64,000 bases of DNA from Polytrichum commune (taxonomy: Eukaryota; Streptophyta; Polytrichopsida; Polytrichales; Polytrichaceae): the NCBI GenBank assembly GCA_950295325.1, contig OX485809.1, positions 8,000,001-8,064,000 of the forward strand, written 5' to 3'. The stretch's first letter is position 1. Each line of letters begins with the position of its first letter. The notes beneath the pieces are model-generated. The model had not been told where the DNA came from and made no database searches. It saw only the letters and a list, made by a program, of their open reading frames with translations. Shown here piece by piece: positions 5,261-53,452 of the stretch. A program made the translations under genes and the position numbers.

Positions 5261-6700
5261 TAGTCAATGACACTTAAATTCGGTTAAGTTAGGTTCCGAT
5301 CGAGTACCGATCCCAAGTGCATGGGATTGGGTTGTGTATTTTATTCTACATTATGTTGTTTGTTGGAAGGGAATGTTGAGGTGCATGTTTTGAGACACAT
5401 GGACCACATAACAATACGGTCCCTTCCCCCATGTTGGGATTGGGGAGTCAACTTTTATAAGTAGGTGATAACTTAGAAGTGGCACAATGACATTGTTTGT
5501 ACCCATGAGTACCTATACATTTTATATGAGGGAATCAAGGGTTTGTGCGTATCTACACAATTAACTAAGCTTTGGTCTCGGGACCGGCCAAATTAAGGTG
5601 GGATTTTTGATACTCGGTCATTTTGCGTGCCTTTGACTTTGGGCTTATGCATATTATACGTGTTTTTAATGGGAGTTGAAGTATAATCGACTTCAACTCC
5701 CATTAATGGGAGTGGAAGTCGATTAAGATCAACTTTGTGTCTCGGTAGATATTAACATGGTCGGTTTTGAAATCGAGGATAGTTTACTTTCTATTTTTGA
5801 AATCTAGAATGGAGTTGGCACTAGAGTTCGGGAAGTTTTTGAAGCCTTAGTGGCTAAGTGCCGGTAGTTGCTACGAAGGGTCGGATTTTTTCCAATTTAC
5901 ATCGGCAAGAGCCGGTCTTTTGTAAAATCAATTGGCCAATTGCCTACATTTTCATATTTTCATTGGCCAATATCCAATTAAATGGAATTCATATCGGCAC
6001 TAATTGTTTTAAAAATGTATGAAAAGTTATTAGAAATCATTTCTTAGTACAAAATCTTGAATAAGTGAAAAGAAAGGCATGTTCAAAACTTTCAATTTGA
6101 AGAGTTAATATCCTTGGCAGGAATTGAACCTAGCAATGCCTTCACCGCTTGAAGGCCAAGGGTCCCCCAATTCTTCATAGAAGCAACTGGATTTGGTCAT
6201 GGAAAGGTTGCATAATTCAAAAAGTTTAAGGTTTAGGGTACTTCCTCAAGTGCATCATCAGATGCCCCAGACAAATAGCGCTCTGGATTGCTATACAAAT
6301 AGCGAAACTTATCAGCATCCTTCCAAAGATCTAGAGCACTTGTTAGAATGTCATCAAAATCATTGTTTGGGCCTTCTATAGCAACACGCATCATAATTTC
6401 TAAGTTAGATGTAGACATTTCCGGGACATTTTCTGGTCCATTGGCTAATTGCCGGAGGATTGAAATTATAGTCGGATCGCCATCCAATGGTTGGAAATTT
6501 GGACCGGCCATAAGGGGAAATCCATCGGCTGATAATGAACTAGCCATCGGTTTTCCCCGACCATTGGATGGCACATGAATGTTGATGCAGTTGGTTGTGG
6601 TTTCAAAGCTCCAAAGTGATCGGCAAACTTGAGACATTGATTCATATGCATGGGTGTAATAGATTGGGGTGACACGAACTGGAATTAATTCCTACCAATA
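5260..6700. repeat. Probable LTR-retrotransposon remnant with CGGC/GCCGGT motifs
   Basis: Between about 5820 and 6000 the sequence has alternating ATCGGCA, GAGCCGGT and TTGGCCAAT phrases. In my memory these resemble long terminal repeats of plant gypsy-type elements. The same TCGGC/GCCAATTG vocabulary continues inside the reading frame at 6233-6637. A small stem occurs at 5667-5705, where GGGAGTTGAAGT faces CTTCAACTCCC. I could not find paired LTRs or a primer site, so this is inference from composition and motif style. Confidence 0.3.
6233..6637 (-). CDS. Orphan reading frame, unknown protein (possible retroelement gag or gene fragment)
   Basis: An uninterrupted frame of 134 codons on the minus strand with even amino-acid composition. 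It includes a negatively charged C-terminal half with phrases such as FDDILTSALDLWKDADKF and RYLYSNPERYL. I do not recognise the family. It sits in sequence that looks like a decayed LTR element, so a gag remnant is possible; so is a captured gene fragment. The start is arbitrary, since an overlapping frame continues upstream to about 6675. There is no clear promoter and no recognisable intron. Confidence 0.3.
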   Translation of the reverse strand: MSQVCRSLWSFETTTNCINIHVPSNGRGKPMASSLSADGFPLMAGPNFQPLDGDPTIISILRQLANGPENVPEMSTSNLEIMMRVAIEGPNNDFDDILTSALDLWKDADKFRYLYSNPERYLSGASDDALEEVP

Positions 6701-46267: not shown

Positions 46268-47252
46268 GCACTAGAGGGTCTCTCTCTATCTCTCTCTGCT
46301 ATGTATTGCCTTAACCATAAACGAACCAAATCAATAATTTATGCTAAACCCAAACTAAAGTTACTTTAAGGTTAGGTTAGTCTCAACTAACGGATATCCA
46401 CCATAGATCAGGGCATCTGCATCTATGGCCACAAAGGAAAACCTAACTCTATATTAAGAAAGTGAGGTCACAAGGACTTCCTTTCGCTGGCTAATCCGCG
46501 GTGACTACTTACCCTAAGTAACTTTTGAGCTTAGTGTAAGTGGTACAATTTTGATGTGTTGGGAGGTGTACGTAATTTAACTCTAACCTTGAATGCACAA
46601 GGTTCAAATGGCTAAAAGTAAAATACTCCATGGAAGTATGTGTATTATTTTTTGCAAAATGTATGTTCATGTTGTACATTATGATATGACATACATAACA
46701 ATTGGGTTCTGCTGCTATTCACCTGGTGTATGTTACTAATTCTCTCTTTGGACTTGGTTGGTGGCATGGGCAGATGTGAGGTAGACCCTCCACAAGTTTG
46801 ACAACACCTTTAGGTTTTGCATACCAATTTTTGACAAAAATAAATGTGTACAAAGGACTTAGACATTCCTTAATGATGAGGAATGTTAGGCAATATATTA
46901 AATAATGATAGGACTTTGAAGTAGTAGTGAAAACTATTTATACTAGAATATGACATAATTTGGATATGAAATACATTATTTTAGATTAAGGCTGCAAGGG
47001 TAAACCTTAGTAAAATAATTTATTTATAGTTGTTTACTTTCTTAAAGATATACCAAGACAGGACAATGATCATCGTAAGTTGTTTGATATGCAAGGGCAT
47101 AGCCATGAAAAATAATCCCATCCACCCTCCCGGGTTTTGAAAGGTACATATATATGCAAAAGAATAATGTGGCCTCTTGATAAAATGATGTATTACACAA
47201 ATACTAAGCTTAACAGTAAGCATAATACTGAGTAAGAAAAACATGGCTCTCT
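46268..47252. repeat. ~980 bp direct repeat, left copy
   Basis: Shares near-continuous similarity with 52473-53452, beginning GGTCTCTCTCTATCTCT and CTAAACCCAAA-TAAAGTTA and ending AAGCTTAACAGTAAGCATAA, then GTAAGAAAAAC. Both copies are in the same orientation, 6.2 kb apart. They resemble LTRs or the pseudo-LTRs of Penelope-like elements. Confidence 0.85.
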
Positions 47253-47739
47253 CTAGATCATCCATTAGTAGTATGGATGCTGCTACAATCCATTCTTTAA
47301 CATATATATGAAACCTTATTTACTGATATGATATGTGCGATTTATGTGCGACAACCATAACATAAAGCTCAAATGTGGAATGAAAAGATGGTGGCAATGA
47401 ATTACGACCCTCCACTCCCAGCACCGATCCCTGCAATACAGACAACCTTGGCTACCATTGACGTTCCAAAATTTGACAAATACATCTTAAAAATGGACAC
47501 AATTGCCGCCAATTACGTTGATGAAATTTTTTTTGCACACCCCGCTTATACTGGATACATTAAACTTGGGTGCATGGAGAATATTGTTTATACTAGCCAC
47601 TATAGATAAACAGAAGGCAATAATAAAATTAAAGCCAACACAAAGTCGATTGTCGGAGCTGTTGATAGAGAATGAGCAAGATGCAGTCAGGTAAACACGG
47701 ATGGCCAAGAAAATCGAAATTGTTTTGAAACTGGCCAAT

Positions 47740-50095
47740 AAGGACGTTGTCGTGATGTAGGCCGACTACTAGTTAGAACTCAAACATTTTATATGTTATT
47801 GTTATTTCCAAATTGATATTTATATGATGATCTAAGTTAGTTGTTTGAATTGAGATTCGGTCTTAAGTTCAAGACTGGGTGACCCGGTAGATGGATGTGG
47901 TAGGCAAGATTTGGGAAAGATAGGATTTACCGGCGGACCGTTACCTAACTACCTAAGGGTTCTAGAAGGCCTAATTTTTCAATTTCCTGTTTGTTAGCGA
48001 GATAAGATCTTCAGAAGCCTTAAACCCGCACTTTCCTATTGGCTTGCCGGATTTGCCTTTAATCCAAAAAAAATCTATTTCTAGCGGCATAAGGGCTCTA
48101 GAAACCTTTAACCCAAACTTTTCATAATTTTAGCAAGATAAGGGTTCTAGAAACCTTTTACCCATAAGGTCTCATATTAGTTAGCCACTTGGGGTTTGGA
48201 AATCCTTATCCAAATGATTTCCTATTGGCCTAAGGGAGCAAGGAAAATGAATATTGAAGGGGTATTATAAATGTTTTAAGTGGAAGAACATTAGCATTTG
48301 GAGTTAGTACTTGTGTAGAATTAAAGAAGCTTTGAGCATTTGAAGAAGAATAAGTGTTTACGAAGCTCATTTGTACAAGAGGGTGAGGGGTGAGAATTTT
48401 TAAATGATTAGGTTGCACTAAATGCACTATTTATATTATTTCATTCATTATTAAATGAGCAGAATTTTGGAATGAAGAATTTATGAATTGTGGAGGATTA
48501 GAGTGTTCGATTGTTATGAAAATTTGAAAGGATGTTCTTTATGAGATATAGAAATTGAGGTAAAAATGTGGAAGCTTCAATCTTTGAGGAGGAAAAATTA
48601 TAAAAATTGAAGTGAAGGGAGTCTAGTAACAAAGGCAACTAGGATAACAAAGTTTGAAAATATGGATATTTTTTAATATTATAGCTATGGCTACAAAAAT
48701 TTGACACTACATTTTGATCTTATCTATATATTATGTGTCAAAATTTGAAATTGATTGGACTTAATAATTGGAAGTTATTAGAGTTTTAGTGTCTGGATAT
48801 TATACCGCAACATTCATGCTAGGAAGTTAGACTTAGAAAAACATGCATAACTTTTTAGTATGAGCTCGGTTTGTGCTTAAATTTGGTGTGGATATTTTAA
48901 GTAAGGTACTTAATAAGTGTGTCAAGTTTCACTTGAAGAAAGTGAGTTAGGTGAGAGTTATACTATTCTGAAATTTAGTAGAACAATATTGAGATGGATT
49001 TACAACAAGGGTGTAGGAGAAGAGAAATGTACTATAAAATTTTAAATACTACCATAAAAAAAGGCGCCCCGTGCTTACTGGATAGTGCACATTTTTCTTG
49101 ACAACGCGTTGAACTTTTAAACAACACGGACGAATATATATGAAGATAAATTTATCTCGGTACTAATACACATCCTCTCCTAGCTACGCTGAAAATTTCT
49201 AACGTAGATCTGAGTCCTCTAGAAGATTTTCGTAAGATCATCCAGTTTTCACATGCTGGAAACTAGAATATATATATAATGGTGACAGAGAAAGAATCAG
49301 TTGTCGCAATCAAACCGTTATCAATAACGTTATGGACAATCCGATAAGTATGAGATCTCTCTTCACGGTAGTATTTAAGTTTCATCTCTAATATATTTCC
49401 CTTCATTTATACCCTAGTTCTATATTTCTTTTAATGTTGACCTATTATATTTTAGATACTCATATTTTTTTACTATTTATTCTTTTTAGTTGTAATTTAA
49501 TGTATATATAAAATATTTTATTAACAGTTTATATTTAAAAATTAGCCTTAATCGATCTCTAGCCAAGATCTTATGCATGATTTAATATTTCTAACTTCCT
49601 AACAATAACATTATCCTATAACATCTGGTCAGTAAACTGTCCGGGTATGCAAGATATCATTGTTATTTTAACTTATAAGAAACAATTGGAATTAGGATTT
49701 TCTACACCTCATAAGCAGATAACCAATATGAATCCGTTGAATTTAAAGCTTCTAGAATCCTTAACTAGCTAGCCAATAGAATATTTTTGGGATTAAGGCT
49801 TCTAAACCCTTAACTAGTTAGCTAATAGAAAAGCTTTGGTATTAAGGCTTTTAAAAACATTTAAATAGCTAGATAACGGCCACATCCGACATATTTTATT
49901 CTTCCGAAGTCCTACATACAAAATGTTTTCTATTAAGTCTTTCCTACCAAATTCTATCGGCCTTAAATTTAAGACCAAATCTTAATTAAAACAACTAACT
50001 AAACCATCATATTAATGTTTATTTAAAAAACAATAACATATATAAATGCATATGTTTTAACAAGTAGTCAACCCACATTACGACACTATTTTAAA
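47740..50095. repeat. Long inverted repeat with ~400-500 base arms
   Basis: The left arm 47740-48235 and right arm 49690-50095 pair imperfectly. Matched blocks include TATATGTTATTGTT, GTTAGTTGTTT-AATT, GAT-TGGTCTTAA-TT-AAG and CGTTA-CTA-CTA. Repeated AAGGGTTCTAGAAACCTTTA-type units in the left arm face TCTAGAATCCTTAACTAG-type units in the right arm. The middle (48236-49690) has no recognised gene. It could be a Mutator-like or foldback element. Confidence 0.6.
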
Positions 50096-50564
50096 ATGTA
50101 GAACATCTAGTTACGGACTTCCAATATCGTATGTAGGCAGTGGATAACACCAACCTGATTATTTTTATATCTATCCCAATGTAGAAGACAAGGAAAGGCA
50201 TGTTAAAAAATGATTTGAAAGTTTCAAAAAATAAACAAAAAACAATATAGGAATTCTAAAAACACCTATAGATTTCATGTATATTTTTTCTCTTTTAGAA
50301 TGTTTGATCATTCTTAATGTATTACCTTAGAGGTAAAAATTCATACCAAGCAAGATCTACCCACTGGACATAATCGCAAGGAAACACATTGACTTGAGAT
50401 GTGAAATGTGCAACGACCTTACATGTGTAACCTATAAAATCCGAGGGCCATAAATGGTTGCGAAGGTCCATAATATGGTTTAATCTTACGATATTGATCA
50501 TGATAAACAACCAAGAAATATTTTTCTATCTTACCCTACATCAATTGCTAGATTTGTTGCATTC

Positions 50565-52309
50565 ATGATTTGGATGCGTGGATCTGTTAAAGTATTTGAC
50601 ATTTTTTTACAAGTATGTCAAGTGTTAAATATGGAGCATTTGGTGGATATGAAATTGACGTGTAAGGAGGTATACACCAAATGTAGGCTAATACTACTTG
50701 AAGCGTCAAAACTAAACAAATTTGGTTTCAGGTACTGCCAACATTTTATCTTCGATGACAAAGTTGTAAATAATGAGCTAGATTGGTCCGTAGCCACGTG
50801 TATATTTAAAGTCTAGACAAATAATCTAACAATGTTTGTTTCATTTGTATGAATCACATAAGCAAAACAAACATTAGAAATATTAAGCAGTCCAGATTTC
50901 TTATCATGCATAAACAATGGTAAATGGTCATGAATCGAAGAGATCACAAGTAATATCCGAAATACATTATAAGAACTTATATCTAAATTATGTACTTATA
51001 GCAATGAACTACCTTACATCATGATTATATACAAATTCTATAAGAAGAAATATAGGTGGATTTCTAATGCATTCGGATCCATCTATATATCAATGTAGCC
51101 ACATTAATCACCATAGTTACCATGTCTTTACTAGAAGAAGTAAGATAATGGGCTAGAATTATCAGAATGGATACAAAATTTTCTTTCGGATTAACAACTA
51201 CATTTATTGGATAATTGATTTAATATATGAATGTAGTCTTAACATACTACAAGATATTCATAATATTTATGTGGCGGACATTATTTGGTGTTTTGAAACT
51301 ATACCAGCTAATGGACATGATACATTTTTCGACGCAATGGAATTTATAGCATCATTAGCTCCTAAAAATTTCAAAAATAAACATCCTTGGTCTGAACAAT
51401 TTGGTTCAAAATAAATAAAGATGGGGTAACAATAAGGGCAATATGGGCATCTAAATGTCCTATTTATAGCAATTGGTCTCAAATGTCAGTGACAAAGTTA
51501 TTGACATTACATAAATGACTTATTATTAATTATTATGTAAGGTTGGGCAATCAAATATGGAAACAAGTTTTAGGCATACTAATGGGATTTTTATGCTCTC
51601 TGTTATGGTGTAACATATACTTTATGTCATATGAAATAAGTTTCATGTAAAGGTTGGCTAGACTTGGACTAACGGATATTATAACCAAATTTGCATATGT
51701 TTTCCGGTACATTGATGACCTATGTTGGCTGAATGTAGGAAATACACAAAAAAAATTTGACCAATCACAATCAAGGAAAATATCTAACCCATATTGGATA
51801 TATCCTCTACATATCCTAGACTTTAAATTGGAAGTATCTTATTTTTCTAGTAGTGATGTTTTTCATGGAATCAAAATATATTTCATGAACATACTTGCAA
51901 CTATCTTCGACGAAAAATTTGGCATAGTTACATTACGAAAATTTGACAAATGAATGGACCTCATTTTGTCTACACGCAATATATAAAATTCAACTCTAAT
52001 AGACCGATTAAGCAAACATACAATGTCATAGTTTTACAAACAGTTCACATACTGTATCTTTCTAGTGACAATGAATTTGGCCTACATGAAGTCAACACTT
52101 TGATTTCTATTCTTATCAATAATGGATTCCGGAAGGCGAAACTTTTACAAATTGTGATCAAGACCCTTACAAGAACAAACAATCCAGCTGTCAAGTTCAA
52201 GGTAACGGACCTAGTCAATTTGCTTCAAGGTAAACCTTCATATTTTTTTACACATCTATTTTTGCATCAAAAATGTATACAAGGGTTTGTCACCCACAAA
52301 CTTATTTGA
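50565..52309 (+). pseudogene. Broken reverse transcriptase, Penelope-like or unclassified
   Basis: Pieces lie in three plus-strand frames. About 51241-51412 has DIHNIYVADIIWCFETIP. 51543-51953 has QVLGILMGFLCSLLWCNIYF, one internal stop, then FRYIDDLCWLNVG with the catalytic YIDD intact. 51950-52309 has YTQYIKFNSNRPIKQTYN and LYLSSDNEFGLHEVNTL. The G-I-x-M-G with FRYIDD pair and the terminal thumb-like region resemble Penelope-type and related retroelement enzymes rather than copia or gypsy. The frame 50565-50816 may be its N-terminal part, with weaker support. Stops and frameshifts make it non-functional. No GIY-YIG nuclease is visible after it. Confidence 0.6.
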
Positions 52310-52472
52310 TTGGGTATACATATATAAGGGGTGAGAGTTTGAGTTTAACAAGAGGATTGGTATGCATACCGAGGGTGGATGCATGCTTGTCAATCTTGGT
52401 TAAACCAAAGATTATAAGATGCATCTAGTTCTTGGTCATATAATATATACATACCAAGGGTTTTATATATGA

Positions 52473-53452
52473 TGGAGGGACTCTCTCTATCTCTTGCCTT
52501 AATTATTAGTGCTAAACCCAAAGTAAAGTTATTTTAAGGTTAGATTAGTCTCAACTAATGGATATTCACCATAAATCAAGGCATCTGCATCTATGTCCAC
52601 AAAGGATTACCTAACTCTATATTAAGATAGTGAGGTCACAAGGACCTCCTTTCATTGGCTAAAGTGCGGTGGGTATTTATTCTAAGTAACTTTTGAGCTT
52701 AGTGTAAGTGGTGTAATTTTGGCGTGTTGGGAGGTGTATGTAACTCAACTCTAACCTCGAATGCACAAGGTTCAAATGGCTAAGGAACATGTAGAGTACT
52801 CCATGGAATTATGTGTATTTTTTTTTTGCAAAATGTGTTCATGTTGTACATTATTATGTGACAGATAACAATTGGGTTCTACTACTATTCACCTCATGTA
52901 CGTTACTAACCCTCTCTTTGGACTTAGTTGGTGGCATGGGCACATGTGAGGCAGACCCTTCACAAATTTGACAACATCTTTAGGTTTTGCATATTAGCTT
53001 TTGTCAAAAAATAGTGTGTATATAGGACTTACACATTCTTTAATGATGAAGAATGTTAAGCAATATATTAAGTAATTGGTAGGACTTTGAAGTAGTAGTG
53101 GACAAGGTTTATACTAGAGCATGGCATACTTTGGATATGAAATGCATTATATTTTAATATTATGCATTATATATATACTTTATATTAAGGCTGCAAGGGT
53201 ATAACCTTAGTAGAATAGTTTATTCATGATTGTTTACTTTCTTAGAGACATATCAAGAGATGACAATGACCATGGTAAGTTGTTTGATATGCAAGGGGAT
53301 AGCCATGAGAAATAATCCCACCCACCCTCCCGGGTTTTGAAAGGTACATAGATATGCAAAAGAATGTTGTGGCCTCTTGATAAGAGGATGTATTGCACAA
53401 AGACTAAGCTTGACAGTAAGCATAGCACTAAGCAAGAAAAACTTAGCTCTCA
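52473..53452. repeat. ~980 bp direct repeat, right copy
   Basis: The partner of 46268-47252, with scattered substitutions and small indels. The end AAGCTTGACAGTAAGCAT, then CAAGAAAAAC, matches the left copy; similarity stops within about ten bases afterwards. Confidence 0.85.

Follow-up and report, generated by a model that had tools for sequence, protein, structure and literature searches.

A stretch of 64,000 nucleotides (nt) from the moss Polytrichum commune (contig OX485809.1, positions 8,000,001-8,064,000), referred to here as the window and used as the reference for all window coordinates, contains a decayed copy of a retroelement with two open reading frames (ORFs), whose broken genes lie between direct repeats that resemble long terminal repeats (LTRs). 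With a probability of roughly 0.58, we read the family to which it belongs as a two-ORF retroelement that has a reverse transcriptase (RT) of Penelope type, no recognisable endonuclease and LTR-like ends, and whose reverse transcription would be primed from the ends of GA repeats. We infer both how reverse transcription is primed and how the two repeats come to match. Penelope-type elements without an endonuclease (EN-minus) are a kind already known; what appears to differ here, as we read it, is the CT-microsatellite target and the renewal of the LTRs in each copy.

A common division of eukaryotic retroelements sets LTR elements, which use complementary DNA (cDNA) and an integrase, apart from target-primed elements such as LINE and Penelope. 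The moss family seems to mix both classes by combining jointly renewed LTRs and a Penelope-type RT with the lack of a known nuclease or integrase and with a target that mirrors its own ends. The mechanism is open to testing on better-preserved copies found elsewhere in the genome, for which RNA and cDNA intermediates could be sought.

Copies of the family in the moss genome

The 408-Mb assembly (64 contigs) was searched with 100 residues of the window RT, which match 49 genomic places including the window; two loci are each represented by two separate matches. Outside the window, 24 RT-bearing loci were examined, picked mostly for long open frames and not as a random sample. The repeat-enzyme-repeat order that the original prediction proposed to look for recurs in 15 of them (L001-L003, L005-L012, L014, L016, L017 and L080), where the same ORF1-RT body, and not an unrelated gag-pol, lies between direct repeats at least 99% identical. 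These repeats are 0.98-1.65 kb long except at L003, where the match covers 840 bp only and the right repeat is cut and gives way to the terminal part of a second LTR and a long CT tract; the right end of L017 falls outside the sequence examined. At L013, the 5' repeat is reduced to its last 195 bp, which are 99.5% identical to its own 3' repeat, and eight other loci (L004, L015, L078, L079 and L081-L084) are degenerate or truncated. A typical copy reads (CT)n, LTR, ORF1, RT, G-rich tract, (CT)n and LTR, terminating in AGCTCTCT.

Both frames are open in 11 of the first 17 loci (L001-L003, L006-L010, L012, L016 and L017, with a shorter ORF1 in L003), and at least one frame is broken or not seen in the other six (L004, L005, L011, L013, L014 and L015). 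The open frames, together with LTR pairs that are nearly identical, suggest that the family has been active recently in a land plant. They also bear on the idea of a chance composite, an unrelated RT fragment caught between unrelated repeat copies, to which the window copy on its own, degenerate and with insertions, would lend itself. The recurrent order and the open frames already contradict this idea, and we regard its probability as negligible.

The RT matches are interstitial: all 49 are more than 100 kb from the nearest contig end, and two lie less than 1 Mb from one; a telomeric location was rejected. As to the host, the genome has three LEAFY-like places, and the one translated (L085) finds its best match among five LEAFY chains of the PDB in 4bhk, from the moss Physcomitrium, which suggests a moss.

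Kinship of the reverse transcriptase

ORF1 encodes about 530 amino acids (aa), with an Arg/Gly-rich tail in most copies and an invariant C, C, C, H series spaced as C.C, then C after 7 and H after 8 residues. ORF2 encodes about 725 aa, in which the RT is the sole domain recognised. Pfam searches of the L001 and L003 proteins matched ORF2 to RVT_1 only, under the cut-off (E-values of 2e-4 and 5e-4); at E-values up to 5, they returned no integrase, RNase H, protease or GIY-YIG domain in either ORF and nothing significant for ORF1. The suggestion in the original prediction that the element lacks an endonuclease agrees with this result. DIRS elements have a tyrosine recombinase and split or inverted repeats; membership in that group was rejected, as Pfam found no recombinase domain in the L001 and L003 ORFs and the repeats are direct and simple. 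PDB searches returned no RT for ORF2 (a spurious dehydrogenase match only) and nothing for ORF1.

For profile comparison by hhalign, the query was built from eight ORF2 proteins, and the two Penelope-type references are undocumented sequences. The first, a metazoan Penelope-like RT, aligned with 99.5% probability (E-value 2e-22, 398 columns), and the second Penelope-like RT with 83.6% probability (E-value 8e-6, 279 columns). A gypsy or LINE origin was rejected in the same comparison, which left copia out: the genome's own gypsy (L060, L063) and LINE (L067) sequences reached at most 1.1%, within the range of 20 shuffles each. The grouping of the enzyme with copia, gypsy or group II introns, named in the original prediction as the outcome that would speak against it, was thus not seen for gypsy, with copia outside the comparison and a weak group II match, described below, as the best in NCBIfam. 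We call the RT one of Penelope type; the predicted Penelope-like element with LTR-like repeats stands insofar as the enzyme appears non-gypsy, non-LINE and of that type, its formal membership being unproven. Telomerase is outside this RT comparison, as no telomerase RT exons were found in the 9 kb examined.

Penelope-like elements carry a DKG-type motif upstream of the RT core. A candidate counterpart, GLDKA..NA.FIC, is invariant in all eight aligned ORF2 proteins and reads DKA, not DKG.

Searches beyond the family returned little. None of 13 GIY-YIG matches in the genome lies close to an RT match when compared by eye; contig C9 holds three GIY-YIG frames of 267-285 aa, perhaps organelle intron genes. 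No relatives were found in IMG/VR, nor in GTDB genomes with query A1, and query A3 gave two short GTDB matches in contigs of symbiont metagenome-assembled genomes, read as host contamination. A contig filed under a Bathymodiolus symbiont (L076) carries Penelope-like RT pieces and looks like host contamination. These pieces are related to the second reference (best segment 52% identical), which indicates that the protein family of this reference exists and leaves its classification unproven.

Joint renewal of the LTR pairs

LTR pairs were compared without their first 40 bases, which hold the CT tract, in 13 copies (eight of family A, three of family B and two of family D), with L003 and L080 outside the set. 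In the 11 copies of families A and B, the two LTRs of a copy differ by 0-1 substitutions and at most one gap column, whereas LTRs of different copies differ by 0 to 228 substitutions; the close relatives L009-L011 differ by just 0-2, so that it is the less closely related pairs that account for the contrast. In family D, L016 and L017 show 0 substitutions within and 756 between copies. Differences of 0-1 within copies against up to 228 between them suggest that both LTRs are renewed together, as from one template per cycle.

This pattern bears on the view that the family is an ordinary Penelope-like element whose pseudo-LTRs arise when full and 5'-truncated copies line up head to tail in partial tandems. 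Such pseudo-LTRs and partial tandems have been described for Penelope (PMC3846280, PMC11167929), the RT type would fit, and additional LTR pieces lie beside L002 and L003. The LTR length is near-constant in each family, both ends lie at CT tracts, and no hammerhead was found (see below). Among the 49 RT matches, no pair is 1-12 kb apart, which argues that the copies are not tandem arrays, and the additional LTR by L002 is only about 95% like its neighbour, as expected of a separate insertion. We hold the partial-tandem origin to be improbable.

A search of the genome with one LTR gave 777 first-look candidates, of which 40 were scored. Of the 41 full-length LTR matches listed, 12 have an RT match within 8 kb and 29 have none, and 11 have a listed partner. 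We call these 29 solo LTRs, though a diverged or unlisted partner could be missed. Among the matches listed, solo LTRs seem commoner than complete copies, and some are 100% identical to complete copies.

At L003, the same 172 bp, comprising the end of a different LTR and a CT tract, stand on both sides of the copy (231-402 and 6515-6686, in reverse-complement orientation). The right LTR lacks its own end there, and a large target duplication or a template switch may be responsible.

The CT-microsatellite target

Nearly all LTR ends inspected open in a CT tract and finish in A(G/A)CTCTC(T). The exceptions among 20 solo LTRs are L032/33 and L052/53, with left tracts of 4 and 7 bases, and L036/37, which terminates in TCATCTCT. 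Comparison of the outer 5' CT tract with the internal one that opens the 3' LTR shows the outer tract to be the longer in 12 of 14 copies (up to 105 vs 31 bases; exceptions L005 and L016); at L002 and L003 the outer tract abuts the end of an older LTR and is partly that LTR's own CT. With a threshold of 6 bases and the right ends of L003 and L017 excluded, extra CT was found at one or both junctions in 11 of 14 copies.

Four filled sites (L006 and the solos L036/37, L050/51 and L054/55) share the flanks GGTGTTGGCAAGCTT...GTAGTAGCTCCTTAGC, and L042/43 has nearly the same right flank only. This flank pattern with 2-32 bases between its halves occurs at 21 genomic places, each with a (nearly) uninterrupted CT tract, and at none in a reversed control. 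These 21 empty, CT-bearing sites suggest that, in this dispersed repeat, the CT tract predates the insertion. The dispersed repeat, with 335 first-look candidates, offers a natural set of empty and filled sites for a recurrent CT target.

The CT stands on the sense strand in the insertions checked, and the 30 nt beyond the CT tracts contain neither (GA)3 nor (AG)3 in any of 32 insertions (12 intact, 20 solo), which points to pairing in one orientation.

Candidate structures in the RNA

A block of about 87 nt is conserved across 11 aligned LTRs (the window and families A-D). It forms a putative hairpin in which 94.7% of the alignment cells (alignment A4) are paired, with a covariation of 0.203 vs 0.113 in shuffled alignments and at most 0.094 when the partners were slid, the structure being derived from the same sequences on which it was scored. 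The two measures least sensitive to relatedness were not significant, with 4 two-sided changes (reached in 32 of 500 shuffles) and 13 further pair types (73 of 500).

Two short motifs were noted in the LTRs. In other copies the conserved block bears CAGGTGAGG, which resembles the consensus of a 5' splice site, and the 3' copy of the window reads CATGTGAGG (window positions 46771-46781 and 52941-52951); a spliced RNA may exist. A C-rich run (CCCACCCACCC) lies about 100 nt ahead of the LTR end, for example at about 7550-7564 of L010; it recurs in families A-C and in the 3' LTR of the window and was not found in L016 and L017.

A second hairpin directly follows the CTCTCT of the 5' LTR in 12 of 12 copies, with eight different stem sequences. 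The unbroken stems span 5-9 bp including G-U pairs, for example TAGCAG/CTGCTA, TAGTGGT/ACCACTA and TACTTCAAA/TTTGAAGTA; for each copy, between 3 and 34 of 2000 shuffled sequences reached the observed stem. The folding energies are weak on their own (z-scores of -0.6 to -2.3 for eight sequences), and a free fold of the window copy prefers another pairing. Ahead of the 3' LTR, a G-rich tract of the form ACCA(G/A)GGG...GGG is present in the 13 copies compared. No hammerhead was detected: Rfam gave no match at the gathering threshold in the window or 10 loci, and none of hammerhead type in three loci at E-values up to 5.

These features bear on classical LTR replication, in which an RNA-borne primer and two strand transfers would produce a linear cDNA with full LTRs, the integrase having been lost and entry into CT tracts proceeding by homologous or single-strand annealing. 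The LTR pairs identical within a copy, the constant LTR ends and the polypurine-like G-rich tract ahead of the 3' LTR would all be expected from it; the 29 LTRs lacking an RT within 8 kb would be recombination solos. By inspection, the sequence after the 5' LTR differs between families and forms a hairpin, with no conserved tRNA primer site seen; in the window, the bases after the left repeat are unlike the usual initiator-Met site, in line with the original prediction's claim that no Met-tRNA primer site is present. The family-variable hairpin sits where a tRNA primer site is expected, Pfam found neither RNase H nor integrase, the RT is unlike the gypsy sequences tested, and two copies have clean 5' truncations. 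On balance we consider classical replication unlikely.

Truncated copies

The two clean truncations are L013, cut within the 5' LTR, and L079, cut within ORF1; both have abrupt left ends at non-CT sequence and 3' LTRs that reach the usual terminal motif. L078 is cut within the RT and L082 within the 5' LTR, and an intact 3' LTR is demonstrable for neither; L082 was not retained among the clean truncations, its 5' LTR piece having no right-end match. Searches with the LTR 5' and 3' ends gave 52 and 495 first-look candidates, respectively, but the 3' end is conserved across families and these counts thus do not decide on truncation. The truncations support target priming only weakly, and truncation inside the LTR is rare.

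Proposed priming from GA-repeat ends

In the mechanism that we propose, a nick or break in a CT/GA microsatellite would expose a free (GA)n 3' end. The RNA would anneal to this DNA end through the CU tract that closes its LTR, and reverse transcription would be primed there with no nuclease of the element's own. The RT would copy the LTR, the body and then, in a second pass off circular or read-through RNA, the second LTR. The (GA)n reached at the LTR start would join the CT tract of the target and so set the 5' end, and an earlier stop of copying would leave 5'-truncated copies. Two LTRs from one source would need a circular or read-through RNA, or a strand transfer, and the hairpin 3' of the 5' LTR adjoins the terminal CU tract only in a circular or read-through RNA. 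In vitro, the minimal template of a Poseidon element spans the repeat-ORF junction and its reverse transcription starts internally (PMC11167929), which by analogy favours the circular or read-through option.

Several points weigh against this reading. The Penelope references are not documented sequences, and in Pfam one of them gives RVT_1 without GIY-YIG and the other neither. The best NCBIfam match of the RT is a group II intron RT, at 20 bits against a cut-off of 300. Known Penelope repeats carry a hammerhead, and none was detected here. Three of the 14 copies (L001, L007 and L016) have no extra CT of at least 6 bases at a junction. The L080 LTR pair is 99.3% identical (0.7% different), the right LTR of L003 is shortened, and classical strand transfer likewise gives identical LTRs. 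L081 lacks its 3' part, so ordinary deletions occur too, and L013 and L079 could be later deletions; of the best 40 matches to the LTR 3' end, a corresponding 5' end or a full-length match accompanies 39 (exception C6:6935913), a rarity of truncation that classical replication would also predict. Lastly, the mechanism needs internal CT tracts to be opened, for which breaks at such repeats or an undetected activity of ORF1 are possible.

As a tentative extension, the family may represent a separate route to LTRs, in which microsatellite ends replace the tRNA primer, homology at both ends replaces the integrase, and a circular or read-through RNA serves as template; LTR renewal would then have arisen with neither RNase H nor integrase nor a primer-binding site. 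If this were true, many solo LTRs would be one-lap insertions, not recombination products.

Comparison with known retroelements

EN-minus Penelope elements are defined by two ORFs, the lack of an endonuclease and a length of about 4-6 kb (PMC6431247), and exposed 3' ends at telomeres or double-strand breaks have been proposed to prime their synthesis (PMC3846280). In the Terminons, a short repeat at the RNA 3' end has been proposed to pair with telomeric overhangs (PMC6431247). The moss family resembles the Athena and Terminon elements of bdelloid rotifers in its Penelope-type RT (as judged from the undocumented references), its two ORFs, the lack of an endonuclease, its size of about 6 kb and a short 3'-end repeat complementary to the target repeat. 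It differs in targeting interstitial (CT)n and renewing its LTRs in each copy, in that no hammerhead was found, and in that full-length copies are common in the loci examined. The CUCUCU at the LTR end and the (CT)n target would fit the Terminon logic, with a microsatellite replacing the telomere. Under our reading, the end-priming of EN-minus Penelope elements would not be confined to telomeres and breaks but would also take place at internal microsatellites, and attachment to telomeres would appear as a special case of annealing to exposed simple-repeat ends of any kind.

Among plants, EN-minus Penelope elements have been reported in spike moss and conifers (PMC9033089, PMC12477314), beside the EN-plus Dryad of conifers. 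They share with the moss family a plant host and, in one group, the lack of an endonuclease, and they differ by description, as the excerpt of PMC9033089 mentions neither microsatellite targets nor identical LTRs. Canonical EN-plus Penelope and Poseidon elements also have LTR-like repeats, and the internal start of Poseidon recalls the hairpin by the CU tract (PMC11167929); unlike them, the moss family has no GIY-YIG (in L001 and L003), tandem arrays or detected hammerhead.

With Ty3/gypsy and Ty1/copia the family shares LTR pairs renewed in each cycle and an ORF1 in the position of gag with a basic tail. It differs from LTR retrotransposons in an RT unrelated to gypsy at the profile level (copia excluded), in having no recognised RNase H, protease or integrase, and in ends that read CT...CTCT instead of TG...CA. 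Telomere- or microsatellite-specific LINEs exist, with their own endonucleases; the moss RT is not LINE-like, and the element's own ends repeat its target. Insertion into simple repeats is common to the moss family and to simple-repeat-associated elements, microsatellites having been described as landing pads of plant and human elements (PMC12477314). No such family is described in the titles and abstract openings listed by searches of the open-licence literature, which does not show its absence from print.

The copy in the window

The features of the window copy are given in Table 1. The two same-orientation repeats of about 980 bp in the original prediction were confirmed: they are direct repeats of about 975 bp on the same strand, spaced 6.17-6.20 kb apart, with four ungapped blocks of 84-88% identity. 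Their global alignment is 87.0% identical over 937 columns, with 74 gap columns and a K2P distance (Kimura two-parameter) of 0.145, and blastn on shuffled controls gave a match in 0 of 50. The broken RT with its FRYIDD and GILMG motifs was likewise recovered, but it does not end inside the right repeat as had been claimed: its homology stops about 220 bp ahead (52258 vs 52481). The three ORF1 remnants had been missed in that first reading. No tRNA and no (CT)5 or longer tract was found in the window.

Table 1 Coordinates of the retroelement copy and its parts in the window
Feature	Position	Strand	Remarks
Left (5') LTR-like repeat	46280..47254	+	Starts with CT tract, ends GGCTCTCTCT; ends fixed against intact copies
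Conserved LTR hairpin region, 5' copy	46704..46788	+	Placed by eye against 3' copy; left out of the alignment
Hairpin just 3' of 5' LTR	47266..47285	+	8-bp stem with G-U pairs; reached in 13/2000 shuffles
ORF1 remnant, N-terminal part	47343..47745	+	tblastn with L003 and L006 ORF1, identity 39-52%
Insertion within ORF1	47746..49158	.	Gap in ORF1 homology; inverted-repeat ends in common with 49318-50094
ORF1 remnant, middle part	49159..49317	+	Homology to ORF1 of intact copies
Second ORF1 insertion	49318..50094	.	Apparently kin to 47746-49158, opposite orientation
ORF1 remnant, last piece	50095..50594	+	Internal deletion fuses the piece to RT residue ~170
ORF2 (RT) remnant, L003 residues 170-729	50592..52258	+	Three frames; tblastn pieces 49-62% identical to L003
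LGILMG, RT motif ahead of catalytic site	51570..51587	+	GIPMG in intact copies
FRYIDD catalytic motif	51702..51719	+	Read in the sequence
G-rich tract abutting 3' LTR, ACCAAGGG...GGAGGGA	52451..52480	+	Read in the sequence; comparison with other copies
Right (3') LTR-like repeat	52481..53452	+	Pairwise with left repeat
Conserved LTR hairpin, 3' copy	52874..52958	+	LTR alignment with covariation scoring

The two insertions within ORF1 have imperfect inverted ends and subterminal repeats of about 49 bp in common, as two oppositely oriented copies of one small transposon would.

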